From Acidobacteriota bacterium (lineage in GTDB: Bacteria; Acidobacteriota; Terriglobia; UBA7540): a stretch of 33,756 bases of DNA. Positions 1,179 through 5,435 of this stretch are shown here, one piece after another. The notes below the pieces were generated by a model. The model was not told the origin of the DNA. It was given only the letters and a program-made list of their open reading frames with translations, and ran no database searches. Numbering within the stretch: position 1 is the stretch's first letter; every line of letters starts with the position of its first letter. A program made the translations under genes and the position numbers. Location of the stretch: positions 1 through 33,756 of the forward strand of contig CADDZC010000045.1 of assembly GCA_902812365.1 (NCBI GenBank). Direction: 5' to 3'.

Positions 1179-3317
1179 TCACGGGTACAGCAGATACTTG
1201 GCTCGCAGGGCGCGGAAGGGCCGAAGTTGGTTCTGCTCCCAATCGTAGGCGATTCGCCGCGGGTCGTGCCCGCGCTTGACGGCCTCGATCACCGCCCGCG
1301 AGCCGACCAAGGGAAGAGTTTTGTCAATCTCGAAGTCTTGGGGAAACAGATGATTGAGCGCTGCCGCCAGCTCGACGCCGAGCTCGGGAGTATCGAGCGC
1401 CTGGCGATCGAGCAGGTTGAGTTGGACGCCGTGGCAAACTTCGCCGGCAAAACGGTTCTCGCGCGGCGTGAAGTCGACGGGAAGGAATCGCACGCCCTGA
1501 ATATGGCGGGCGTTGAGGTACGCCGCCAGGGTGCCGCCGTTGATCCACGGCGCGCCCAGCACCTCAAAAGGGGTATCGGTGCCGCGTCCCACGCTCACAT
1601 TGGCGCCTTCCACCATGCCAACGCCCGGATAAAGCGCCATCTCGATCATGTTTCGCAGGTTGGGCGAGGGATTAATCCACCGGAGGCCTGTTTCGTCGTA
1701 CCAATCAGTTCGCTGCCAGCCTTGCAGGCGGATCACGGTCAGCCGCGCCCCGATATGGTTTTCGGCGTTGAACATTTGCGCCAGTTCGCCCACCGTCATT
1801 CCGCAGCGGACCGGCAGCTGGAAATAGCCGACAAACGAACGCAAATCGTCGTCGAGCACGGGACCTTCGACGTTGAAGCCGTTGATCGGGTCGGGACGAT
1901 CAAGGACGTAAAAGGGGAGGCCCTTTTTCGCCGCCGCCTCCAAAGCGTAGCCCAGCGTCGTGACGTAGGTGTAATAGCGTACGCCGGCGTCTTGGAGGTC
2001 ATAGACCAGCGCGTCGATGCCCTGGAGCATCCGCTCGGTGGGACGCTCGGTCTCGCCGTAAAGGCTGTAAACCGGCAGGCCGGTAACGGGCTCGACGGTG
2101 GAGGGCACGCGGGTGTCGGCGCGGCCGAACAGACCGTGCTCGGGGCTGAAGATGGCCACCAGCTTCACGCTCGGCGCGTGATTCAGAAGGTCGATCGTCC
2201 GGCGGCCCTCGCGGTCGACGCCGGTCGGGTTGGTGATCAGACCGACGCGGCGACCGGCGAGCGGCGCGAAGTTTTCCGACTCGAGCACGTCGATTCCGGT
2301 GCGGACGTCGTCGTTGCGGGTCGGCCCCATCCGATAACCGCTCCGCAGCTCGTTGAGGGTGGTCAGGCTGAGACGGCTTTCGAGTTCTGCCGCCGTGGGG
2401 ACCCGCCCGTCCACGGCGGCAGCGAGGGTGGCGACGCGCGAGCGCAGGGAGACAACGTTGCCCTGGCCGGCCGGATGGACGGCATTGGTCAGCAGCACGA
2501 CGTAGGTCTTCGAAAACGGATCGATCCAGATGTCCGTCCCGGTGAATCCGGTGTGCCCGAACGAGCCGAGAGGAAACAGTTCGCCGCGATTCGAGGCGTA
2601 AGGGGTGTCGATATCCCAGCCCAGTCCGCGCACGTCCATGGCTCCGGGCGGTGTTTCCGGCGTCGTCATCTTGAGAACCGTGGCGCGGCGCAGAATGCGG
2701 CGGCCGCGATACGTTCCCCCGTTCAGAATCATCTGGGCGAAAATCGACAGGTCGCGAGCGGTCGAAAAGAGACCGGCGTGCCCGGCCACGCCGCCCATGT
2801 TGAAGGCCGTGGGGTCGTGCACCTGACCCCACAGCATCGGGCCGCTGGTGCCGTTCTGATACTGGGTGGGCGCGATGCGCCAGCGCAGCCGTTCGGGCGG
2901 GCGGAACCGGGTGTCGTTCATGCCCAAGGGCCTGAAGATGTGCCGGGCGCAATAGACGTCGAGAGGTTCTTTGGAAATCCGCCGCACCAGTTCGCCGAGC
3001 GCCTCAAAATTGATATCGCTGTAAATGAACCGCGTTCCGGGCGGAACGATCGGCGCTTCCTGGGCGATCATCGCCATCGCCGTGTCGTAACCCGACCACG
3101 GCGGCTCGAGTGGCAGGTCGGGGGCGAGGCCCGAATAGTGGGTGAGGAGTTCCAGCACCGTGATCTCCTGCTTGCCGTGAGCGGCAAACTCCGGCCAGTA
3201 GTCCGCCACCGGGTCGCTCAGCCTGATCTTCCCCTGCTCGAAGAGCTGCATGATGGCGGTGGTGGTGGCGACGACCTTCGTCAACGAAGCCAGATCGAAG
3301 ATGGTATCCACGCGCAT
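1179..3317 (-). CDS. namZ: Serine beta-lactamase-fold (AmiE-like) domain fused to NamZ (DUF1343) exo-N-acetylmuramidase; N-terminus disrupted
   Basis: 712 codons from the first usable ATG. The N-terminal domain (about 1-330) has the class C beta-lactamase/esterase triad: S11-x-x-K14, Y99-S-D and H255-T-G257. The C-terminal domain (about 340-712) is DUF1343/NamZ, with NPTGVD near 363, a following PEHGLFG segment and DLQDAGVRYYTY. NamZ removes terminal MurNAc from peptidoglycan fragments. In Bacillus subtilis the separate amiE (beta-lactamase fold, MurNAc-L-Ala amidase) and namZ genes are neighbours, so this fusion may do both steps; that is inference. The 5' end is odd. The family needs about 50 more residues before S11. 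The frame stays open only to a TAG at 3419-3417 and has no start codon there. A segment encoding the missing conserved stretch lies on the plus strand at 3380-3463. A signal-peptide-like start (MMICRRSRARVSAAV...) lies on the minus strand at 3531, in another frame. As written the gene is probably not functional. Confidence 0.85.
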   Translation of the reverse strand: MRVDTIFDLASLTKVVATTTAIMQLFEQGKIRLSDPVADYWPEFAAHGKQEITVLELLTHYSGLAPDLPLEPPWSGYDTAMAMIAQEAPIVPPGTRFIYSDINFEALGELVRRISKEPLDVYCARHIFRPLGMNDTRFRPPERLRWRIAPTQYQNGTSGPMLWGQVHDPTAFNMGGVAGHAGLFSTARDLSIFAQMILNGGTYRGRRILRRATVLKMTTPETPPGAMDVRGLGWDIDTPYASNRGELFPLGSFGHTGFTGTDIWIDPFSKTYVVLLTNAVHPAGQGNVVSLRSRVATLAAAVDGRVPTAAELESRLSLTTLNELRSGYRMGPTRNDDVRTGIDVLESENFAPLAGRRVGLITNPTGVDREGRRTIDLLNHAPSVKLVAIFSPEHGLFGRADTRVPSTVEPVTGLPVYSLYGETERPTERMLQGIDALVYDLQDAGVRYYTYVTTLGYALEAAAKKGLPFYVLDRPDPINGFNVEGPVLDDDLRSFVGYFQLPVRCGMTVGELAQMFNAENHIGARLTVIRLQGWQRTDWYDETGLRWINPSPNLRNMIEMALYPGVGMVEGANVSVGRGTDTPFEVLGAPWINGGTLAAYLNARHIQGVRFLPVDFTPRENRFAGEVCHGVQLNLLDRQALDTPELGVELAAALNHLFPQDFEIDKTLPLVGSRAVIEAVKRGHDPRRIAYDWEQNQLRPFRALRAKYLLYP

Positions 3318-3379
3318 GGGAAGCGCTCTGGGGACGAGCGCGCGGTGCCCAAAGGCGCGTTGGTAGACGACCCGCCCGC

Positions 3380-3463
3380 GGCGGCCTGGCGGCGATCGCT
3401 CCGGTGGTGGAAGAAGCTATCCGCGAGGGGAAGTGCCCGGGAGCGGTCGTCGCGATCGGCGGG
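3380..3463 (+). pseudogene. Inverted N-terminal fragment of the beta-lactamase/NamZ gene
   Basis: Read on the plus strand, 28 codons give GGLAAIAPVVEEAIREGK followed by CPGAVVAIGG. This is the conserved first helix and strand of class C beta-lactamase-like proteins, and it is exactly the part missing from the minus-strand gene that begins 60 nt away. The minus-strand frame resumes at GRRGRVVYQRAFG, the stretch that normally follows. Joining the GGC at 3458-3460 to the GGC read on the minus strand at 3386-3384 would restore AIG-RRGRVVYQRAFG in frame. So about 71 bp (3387-3457) look inverted. The signal-peptide side would still be out of frame, so a further small indel or a different breakpoint is needed there. 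Confidence 0.75.
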
Positions 3464-3647
3464 ACGATCCAAAGGAAGGCGCCCATCACCGCCGCCGAGA
3501 CCCTCGCCCGGCTTCGCCTGCAGATCATCAATTCATCGACTCCATCGGGCTGTTTTCCCTGCCGAGCTCCGAGCCTTTGCTATATACTCCCGTTTTTGCC
3601 GGCTCGAGAACGGACAAGTCTAACCGAATCCACAGGCAGGTTGCCTC

Positions 3648-5435
3648 ATGAAAATTAGCCTTGTTGATTGGTGCGTGGTCGCCGCCTACTTCACCGTTAA
3701 CCTGCTCATCGGCCTCTACTACCGCCACAAGGCCAGTGCCAGCACCGACGAGTTTTTTGTTTCCGGGCGGCAGGTGAGTTGGTGGCTGGCGGGAACCTCG
3801 ATGGTGGCGGCTACCTTTGCCGCCGATACGCCGCTGGCGGTCACCGGCTTCGTCGCCACCCAAGGCATTGCCGGCAACTGGATCTGGTGGAGCTTTCTGT
3901 TCAGCGGCATGATGACGGTGTTCTTTTTCGCGCGCTTGTGGCGGCGCGCGGAGGTGATCACCGATGTGGAGCTGGTCGAGCTCCGTTACGCGGGCAAGGC
4001 GGCCGCCTTCCTGCGCGGATTTCGGGCCCTGTATTTCGGCCTGCTGATGAACTGCCTGATCGTCGGATGGGTCAATTTGGCGATGGAAAAGATCCTACAG
4101 ACGGCGCTCGGCGTCACCCGGTTCCAGGCGGTGCTGATCCTCTTCGCCATCATCGCCCTGACCAGCTTCTACACCTTCGTCTCCGGGCTGTGGGGCGTGC
4201 TGTGGACCGACCTGATTCAGTTCGTCCTCAAGATGACCATGGTGATCGTCCTGGCCTATTACGGCGTGGAAGCCGCGGGCGGCTTGGCGGGGCTCAAGCG
4301 GAAGCTGGCCGTGCTCGACCGGGCGCGGCAGGCGGCGCACGGGGGCTCCGGCTCGATTCTGGCTTTTATCCCCGACCTCCATTCGCCCTGGATGCCGCTC
4401 GCCACCTTCGCCGTGTACGTCGGCATCAACTGGTGGGCCAACTGGTACCCGGGAGCCGAGCCGGGTGGCGGAGGTTACGTGGCGCAGCGCATCTTCAGCG
4501 CCAAAGACGAAAAGCACTCGCTGTGGGCGACGCTCTGGTTTAACCTCGCTCATTACGCCATGCGCCCCTGGCCGTGGATTCTGACGGCGCTCGCTTCCAT
4601 CGTCCTCTATCCCCGCCTGCAAGATCCCGAGATCGGCTACATCAAGGTCTGGGTGGATTATCTGCCGGCGGCGTGGCGCGGCTTGATGCTGGCCGCGTTC
4701 GCCGCCGCTTACATGTCCACGATCGCCACGCAGCTCAACTGGGGATCGTCGTACCTCATCAACGATTTTTACCAGCGGTTCCTGGTCAAAAATCGCGATC
4801 CTCGCCATTACGTTCTGATGTCCAAGGTCGCGACGGCGTTTCTGGCCGTGCTGGGCGCGCTGGTCTCGCTGGTGATGCAGTCGGTGGGCGGCGCCTGGGA
4901 ACTGCTGCTGGGCGTGGGGGCGGGGACCGGCGCCGTCTATCTGCTTCGCTGGTATTGGTGGCGCATCAACGCCTGGTCGGAAGTCTCGGCGATGGCCGCC
5001 GCCGCCGTCACCACGCTCGTGCTCCACACGCGCGTGCATCTTGCCGGGCCGCCGCCCATCCTGTTCGCCAAAAATATCGTGCTCACCGTCGGCATCACCA
5101 GCGCGGTCTGGCTCCTCACCACCTATTTCACCGCTCCTGAGCCGGATTCGAAGCTGATCGAGTTTTACCGGCGCACGCGGCCGTCCCTGGCGGGCTGGAG
5201 GCGCGTTGCCGCTCTGGCTCCGGACGTCCGGCCGAGCGGCGGGGGGTGGTATAACCTGCTTGACTGGGCTCTGGGCTGCCTGATGGTTTACATGGCGCTG
5301 TTTGGCATCGGCAAAATCTGCCTGGGAGCCGTGGCGACGGGAATCGTGTTCCTCGCCGTCTCGGCCCTTTCCGGCTCTTTGATTTACTGGGATTTCTCGC
5401 GTCGCGGCTGGGAGACGCTGTCCGGTAGAGACTGA
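3648..5435 (+). CDS. Sodium:solute symporter (SSS family)
   Basis: 595 residues, typical of the SSS/SLC5 family, with about 13 hydrophobic segments. The first span (about 7-25) is followed by the family's FFVSGR motif (36-41) and by the GTSMVAATFAADTPL helix, the region that carries the Na2 sodium site in this fold. It imports a small solute with sodium through the inner membrane. Its gene diverges from the beta-lactamase/NamZ fusion. In B. subtilis the equivalent cluster has the MurNAc importer MurP, so a muropeptide-sugar substrate is a reasonable guess, but nothing in the sequence proves it. The ATG is preceded by only a weak Shine-Dalgarno sequence (CAGG). Confidence 0.88.
   Translation: MKISLVDWCVVAAYFTVNLLIGLYYRHKASASTDEFFVSGRQVSWWLAGTSMVAATFAADTPLAVTGFVATQGIAGNWIWWSFLFSGMMTVFFFARLWRRAEVITDVELVELRYAGKAAAFLRGFRALYFGLLMNCLIVGWVNLAMEKILQTALGVTRFQAVLILFAIIALTSFYTFVSGLWGVLWTDLIQFVLKMTMVIVLAYYGVEAAGGLAGLKRKLAVLDRARQAAHGGSGSILAFIPDLHSPWMPLATFAVYVGINWWANWYPGAEPGGGGYVAQRIFSAKDEKHSLWATLWFNLAHYAMRPWPWILTALASIVLYPRLQDPEIGYIKVWVDYLPAAWRGLMLAAFAAAYMSTIATQLNWGSSYLINDFYQRFLVKNRDPRHYVLMSKVATAFLAVLGALVSLVMQSVGGAWELLLGVGAGTGAVYLLRWYWWRINAWSEVSAMAAAAVTTLVLHTRVHLAGPPPILFAKNIVLTVGITSAVWLLTTYFTAPEPDSKLIEFYRRTRPSLAGWRRVAALAPDVRPSGGGWYNLLDWALGCLMVYMALFGIGKICLGAVATGIVFLAVSALSGSLIYWDFSRRGWETLSGRD

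Follow-up and report, generated by a model that had tools for sequence, protein, structure and literature searches.

Short inversions within coding genes

Template switches that invert the spacer between short inverted repeats have been described for coding genes of yeast (PMC8604942) and template-switch mutation at imperfect inverted repeats (quasipalindromes) for E. coli (PMC7202029), and a four-point model of template-switch mutation is set out in PMC7954356. The locus reported here is like these cases in that a short coding segment stands as its reverse complement, with a stretch of homology at the junction that is too short to carry much weight. It differs from them in that its inverted repeat is not centred on the block; furthermore, the block measures about 71-77 nt, whereas the yeast spacer inversions change 2-5 bp (PMC8604942). 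Invertons and intragenic inversions of bacteria are treated in PMC5903667 and PMC11892184. With these our locus shares a short inverted segment within a coding gene and short inverted repeats nearby; unlike them, it has repeats that lie off the inversion axis, a flip that restores no start, and no recombinase among the 22 contig proteins scanned against Pfam. Chanin et al. are said to have addressed bacterial invertons and intragenic inversions in 2024, and one bacterial paper reportedly uses “microinversion” in its title (PMC2483231). Among the papers listed by our own literature search on microinversion, template switching and bacteria, none names bacteria in the title; we make no claim that such cases are unpublished. 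The mutation described below is of a known kind and reveals no new mechanism by itself.

Inversions of less than 100 bp inside genes are easily missed, and a gene caller is expected to start such a gene at the next ATG. For a 100-bp inversion, 150-base paired-end reads yielded no detecting reads, according to PMC5903667. They can be found, however, by searching the opposite strand for the piece that a family member is missing, an approach for which the sensitivity can be measured (232 of 299 planted inversions, see below) and the background is low (1 of 307 gene pairs).

The gene concerned is located on contig C45, which constitutes the window (i.e., the whole stretch of DNA analysed, 33,756 bp) and is part of a genome (G000) of 3.50 Mb in 123 contigs with a completeness of 96.7%. 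Its remaining open reading frame occupies positions 1182-3317 of the minus strand (from 1179 if the stop is included) and encodes 712 amino acids from the first available ATG (3317). It resembles a NamZ exo-beta-N-acetylmuramidase fused to a PF00144 domain: Pfam places a serine-hydrolase domain at residues 1-285, NamZ_N at 358-557 and NamZ_C at 562-711, so that all three domains (PF00144, Beta-lactamase; PF07075; PF20732) are present and in order, and the SLTK, YSDIN and HTGFTG stretches, which we take to be active-site motifs of the beta-lactamase fold, are kept together with the NamZ part. Unlike a complete beta-lactamase/NamZ fusion, however, its frame lacks the first 43 beta-lactamase positions and the signal peptide. 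The closest relative shares 74% identity over residues 1-711, and a search of solved structures did no more than confirm relatives of both protein halves. NamZ enzymes release N-acetylmuramic acid from peptidoglycan fragments. NamZ1 and NamZ2 of Tannerella are referred to in PMC10465942; otherwise our search of the literature on NamZ found little. On the other side of the affected region, a divergent sodium:solute symporter gene (Pfam) is encoded at 3648-5435 on the plus strand. This symporter is also the divergent neighbour in 16 of 28 family loci, with 65-81% identity, three of the other 12 loci having less than 700 bp of upstream DNA.

An N-terminus divided over two strands

The initial annotation held that the minus-strand gene lacks the conserved start of its serine-hydrolase domain and that the plus strand codes for the absent residues at 3380-3463. 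Both statements were borne out. The Pfam Beta-lactamase match begins only at profile position 44 of 329, and the first 43 positions, like a signal peptide, are absent from the frame. A profile built from 36 relatives matches the minus strand over positions 30-132 (182.5 bits) and the plus strand over positions 5-31, with 23.5 bits and, when all six frames of the window are searched, an E of 2.3e-6; this second match comprises 27 residues at 3383-3463; the next best stretch in the window has an E of 1.6. The E-value of the plus-strand match rules out chance, and the codons there do belong to the family. The two pieces abut, both in the profile and in the DNA. The profile was drawn from loci L003-L030, L032-L038 and L042 out of the series L003-L100; L031 (which starts at a contig end and is without N-terminus), L039-L041 (translated only) and the distant L043-L100 were left out.

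The relatives have a consensus of about LAxIAPxVEEAIREGKCPGAVVLVGHxGxVVYRRAFG, of which the minus strand of the window carries only the part from GRRGRVVY onward, while the plus strand carries LAAIAPVVEEAIREGKCPGAVVAIGG. Positions 3318-3386 of the minus strand continue the frame of the gene, with no start codon upstream of them, and encode the hydrolase domain's second strand and the loop after it (GRRGRVVYQRAFGHRALVPRALP). The inverted block, at 3384-3460 on the plus strand (with equivalent edges at 3384-3387 and 3457-3460), encodes LAAIAPVVEEAIREGKCPGAVVAIG, which corresponds to the absent N-terminal helix and first strand. This assignment comes from an AlphaFold model of the domain of a relative that has a mean pLDDT of 55, too poor for a fold search, and was used only for the helix-strand-strand order of the first 30 residues; in this low-confidence model the residues of the block form the domain's first helix and its first strand, and the second strand comes next.

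At the DNA level, comparison of 39 family genomes, including that of the window itself, makes the switch of orientation directly visible in a few of them. Parts of 3381-3460 align with three genomes (G002, G004 and, with 86% over 70 nt, G020) in the orientation opposite to that of their gene, and two others (G019, E 1.4e-4; G024, weakly, E 0.008) match 3330-3379 in the same orientation. The 411-bp region 3250-3660 is single copy in the genome of the window. Relative to its relatives, the block is therefore an in-place reverse complement without a second copy.

Homologues sharing this arrangement would speak for an old, conserved rearrangement, but such a reading finds no support, as all 36 loci have the normal orientation. 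In 35 of these 36 relatives the N-terminal segment is open and continues unbroken into the rest of the gene. Seven of them, L032-L038, derive from acidobacterial assemblies and are the best named relatives; among the genomes compared there was no second genome of the same genus, the nearest belonging to different genera within the family. When 200 genomes of the class were searched with the 41-aa piece, the 18 listed matches outside G000 that reached E ≤ 0.001 were all located in frames of 409-884 aa, and the weaker matches among those listed, many in short frames, were taken as chance.

Edges, frame and origin of the inversion

Re-inversion of 3387-3457, with GGC shared at the junction, had been proposed to restore the family sequence on the downstream side. 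Among 1640 in-silico re-inversions, scored for left edges at 3366-3405 and right edges at 3440-3480, this one was indeed the best, with 227.4 bits compared to 183.6 bits as assembled. Because the three nucleotides GGC are shared, four choices of edges (3384-3387/3457-3460) give an identical sequence, with a coordinate sum of 6844; the left junction microhomology at 3384-3386 (GCC on the plus strand, GGC on the minus strand) is paired with GGC on the plus strand at 3458-3460. A microhomology of 3 nt is to be expected often in DNA of 62% GC and proves nothing alone. Across the restored downstream junction the spacing is the one found in the relatives, and a conserved Leu at the start of the block (27 of 36 relatives) lies inside these edges. 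The plus-strand DNA match extends left to 3381 in L007 and to 3379 in L019, and widening the block by a few bases around the same axis still gives 224-225 bits; therefore, the edges are uncertain by a few bases.

The downstream side of the gene is restored in this way, as had been claimed, and only that side. The signal-peptide-like start noted earlier at 3531 exists (minus strand, 3458-3531; TTG at 3531 or ATG at 3528, reading MICRRSRARVSAAVMGAFLWIVPP from the ATG), but it is out of frame with the gene and stays so after re-inversion: the ATG at 3528 and the ATG at 3317 are 211 bases apart, i.e., 1 modulo 3, and an inversion between them leaves this distance unchanged. The gene's own frame runs into a TGA at 3486-3488, with no ATG, GTG or TTG between this TGA and the block, and of the 422 re-inversions that bring block and gene into a single open frame, none has a start upstream of the block. 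GTG codons do exist inside the block, the use of which would leave out the signal peptide. A complete N-terminus with an in-frame secretion signal is, thus, absent from the assembled gene and no pure inversion restores it. Consequently, the inversion was accompanied by a gain or loss of bases, or an indel of separate origin adjoins it, or the signal-like stretch does not belong to this gene. This stretch, with a best 10-residue hydropathy of 2.37 versus 2.53-3.11 in the four relatives compared, could be a chance open reading frame, and the extra indel could be an event separate from the inversion. The distance from the symporter start to the equivalent of Met-3317 is 331 here, the shortest of 17 (371-1253 in 16 relatives). 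This agrees with a deletion, although the evidence is weak; among the 16, L016 and L018 have the same distance and the same translation and are, therefore, hardly independent.

The GCGATCG reported at the ends of the segment is present, at 3392-3398 and 3452-3458, although as a repeat it lies off the inversion axis. Its core, CGATCG, is its own reverse complement, and 580 copies, complement included, occur in 1.23 Mb. It forms part of a 10-nt inverted repeat with nine matches, the left arm at 3390-3399 and the right arm at 3452-3461, which has a coordinate sum of 6851 instead of the 6844 of the inversion and is, thus, centred 3.5 nt off its axis. The repeat is commoner near the ends than by chance: only 0.8% of 4998 random 71-nt coding segments equal the 10-nt one-mismatch repeat, and 1.8% equal the 7-nt exact match. 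A flip driven by it can nevertheless be rejected, as the best one on sum 6851 reaches 188.0 bits, almost no gain over 183.6. A flip on sum 6842, where a 14-nt repeat of 86% is centred, reaches 187.3 bits at best. Both are far below the 227.4 bits on 6844 and, therefore, these repeats were not the crossover points. One may speculate that they helped the polymerase to stall, but the explanation by template switching makes no use of the 10-nt repeat, which counts against it. The suggestion of a GC-rich hairpin found no support: the folding z-score is 0.94, with 169 of 200 shuffles at least as stable. An artefact driven by such a hairpin is likewise unsupported, the single strand folding less stably than most shuffles.

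We consider it probable, though well short of certain, that this is a recent, single, non-conservative, inactivating microinversion of the template-switch type. The ancestor would have been an ordinary secreted beta-lactamase-fold/NamZ fusion gene, in which about 71-77 bp near the 5' end were copied in place as their reverse complement, with the 3-nt GGC microhomology at the junction and, on the upstream side, a net gain or loss of bases that is not a multiple of three. This would most likely have come about by a template switch during replication, with the polymerase moving over to the opposite strand, copying the block in reverse and going back to a slightly wrong position, so that a single event could account for both inversion and indel. 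It would have deprived the product of its signal peptide, of the N-terminal helix and of the first two hydrolase strands, leaving the 712-codon frame from ATG 3317. Judging from the sequence, the secreted enzyme has most likely been lost, as the predicted product would not be exported and its hydrolase domain would be incomplete. It looks like a one-off copying accident and not like a genetic switch. Of the readings offered in the initial annotation, a real inactivating inversion is the one that gained support, from the clear homology, the lack of a second copy and the finding of a single convincing case among 307 gene pairs. The inverted form would then probably be carried by a living population and, if confirmed by reads, would represent a clean gene inactivation by microinversion in an uncultured bacterium.

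The main rival, unlikely but to be taken seriously, is an artefact of sequencing or assembly, in which case the gene would be normal in the organism and the contig wrong over about 150 bp; a mixed population is likewise conceivable. The genome was compared with a relative: 1.23 of its 3.50 Mb (35%) was scanned against 1.59 of about 3.9 Mb of G001, which gave 307 gene pairs of at least 45% identity over at least 100 aa, with a median identity of 65.8%. The opposite strand scored at least 40 and above the same strand in 34 of these pairs, of which two were collinear within 60 nt, i.e., this locus (79 vs. 29) and, upstream of another gene, a match that scores 43 over 10 residues rich in R, G and A and was not counted. 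With the threshold applied to the planted controls (at least 60 and above the same strand), two of 307 pairs remained, the second being of low complexity and not collinear. This locus is, thus, the only convincing collinear inverted block in 307 pairs. Planted inversions of 72 nt were recovered in 232 of 299 pairs (204 of 299 for 60 nt, 266 of 299 for 90 nt), eight of the 307 pairs being too near an edge for planting. Frameshift-like breaks, in a test that depends on strong matches to either side of the break, were found in none of the 307 pairs, and none of the 18-mers in 3300-3560 occurs a second time, in either orientation, within the 1.23 Mb examined. Because of this single convincing block, the lack of frameshift-like breaks and the lack of a recurring 18-mer, a general assembly fault is unlikely, though a local one may still have arisen. 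The longest perfect repeat noted in the 411-bp neighbourhood measures 9 nt, so there is no evident repeat for a k-mer assembler to misjoin, and the idea of an assembly error at a hairpin is left without support. Points in favour of an artefact are the fragmentation of the assembly (123 contigs), the occurrence of two defects, the inversion and the frame mismatch, within 150 bp, and the good preservation of the remaining sequence, which is what one would see in a gene that is in fact intact. An in-frame stop inside the tblastn-aligned stretch also occurs in 29 of 307 pairs; some of these may be pseudogenes and some alignment run-through at gene ends, but they cast some doubt on whether the assembly or the gene set is perfectly clean. 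The identity of the gene to its G001 counterpart is 72.8%, above that of 217 of the 307 pairs. As conservation of the remainder is on a par with that of other genes, either the change is recent, or it is an artefact, or the remainder is still functional.

A conservative microinversion combined with an independent small indel upstream seems improbable to us. Both changes are seen, and further decay is what one expects in a dead gene; however, the 712-codon frame is open and well conserved, which suggests that little time has passed, and a single event is the simpler explanation. Phase variation by an intragenic inversion (an inverton), in which the block flips and toggles secretion of the enzyme, was among the earlier suggestions and we regard it as highly improbable. 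The 10-nt one-mismatch repeat near the ends, so rarely equalled in random segments, speaks for such a system. Yet the flip on its axis scores 188.0 bits against the 227.4 on 6844, none of the 422 flips provides a start upstream of the block, the inverted state occurs in 0 of 36 relatives, and the scan of 22 contig proteins revealed no recombinase, although a nearby recombinase would be supportive and is not obligatory. The off-axis repeats and the lack of a pure inversion that restores the gene, therefore, disfavour a conservative, reversible switch. Most remote is the idea that this lineage has an intragenic inversion system of which the assembled block represents one state. In the other state, a signal peptide would be joined, through a junction that differs slightly, to a peptidoglycan-recycling enzyme, and individual cells would then differ in whether they harvest cell-wall fragments outside the cell.

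Variation in the family and the surrounding genes

Some further observations concern the relatives. The locus L023 (G003:C122) has an in-frame TAG in the conserved segment (LR*AIQKRECPG), about 110 bp upstream of the equivalent of Met-3317, which is either a second, independent disruption of the 5' region or a sequencing error. L016 (G006) and L018 (G032) are assigned to separate species and have the same N-terminal and upstream translation; these genomes may be near-identical or share contamination. At the level of the class, matches to NamZ and to the beta-lactamase fold occur at separate places in G041, G044, G049, G052, G056, G058 and G059, among others, and in one fused protein in the family of the window and in G039, G040, G048, G053 and G055, while G060 has NamZ and a beta-lactamase-fold domain within a frame of 1412 aa. 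The NamZ/beta-lactamase fusion may, therefore, have been gained or split repeatedly.

A consensus scan of 3200-3760 revealed neither a promoter nor a terminator at the junction. At the beginning of the window, a gene with Sigma70_r2 and r4 domains, presumably a sigma factor of the ECF type, is located at 320-901 on the minus strand. It is followed on the same strand by a short protein (3-323) that is cut by the contig end and, in our view, resembles a zinc-finger anti-sigma factor.
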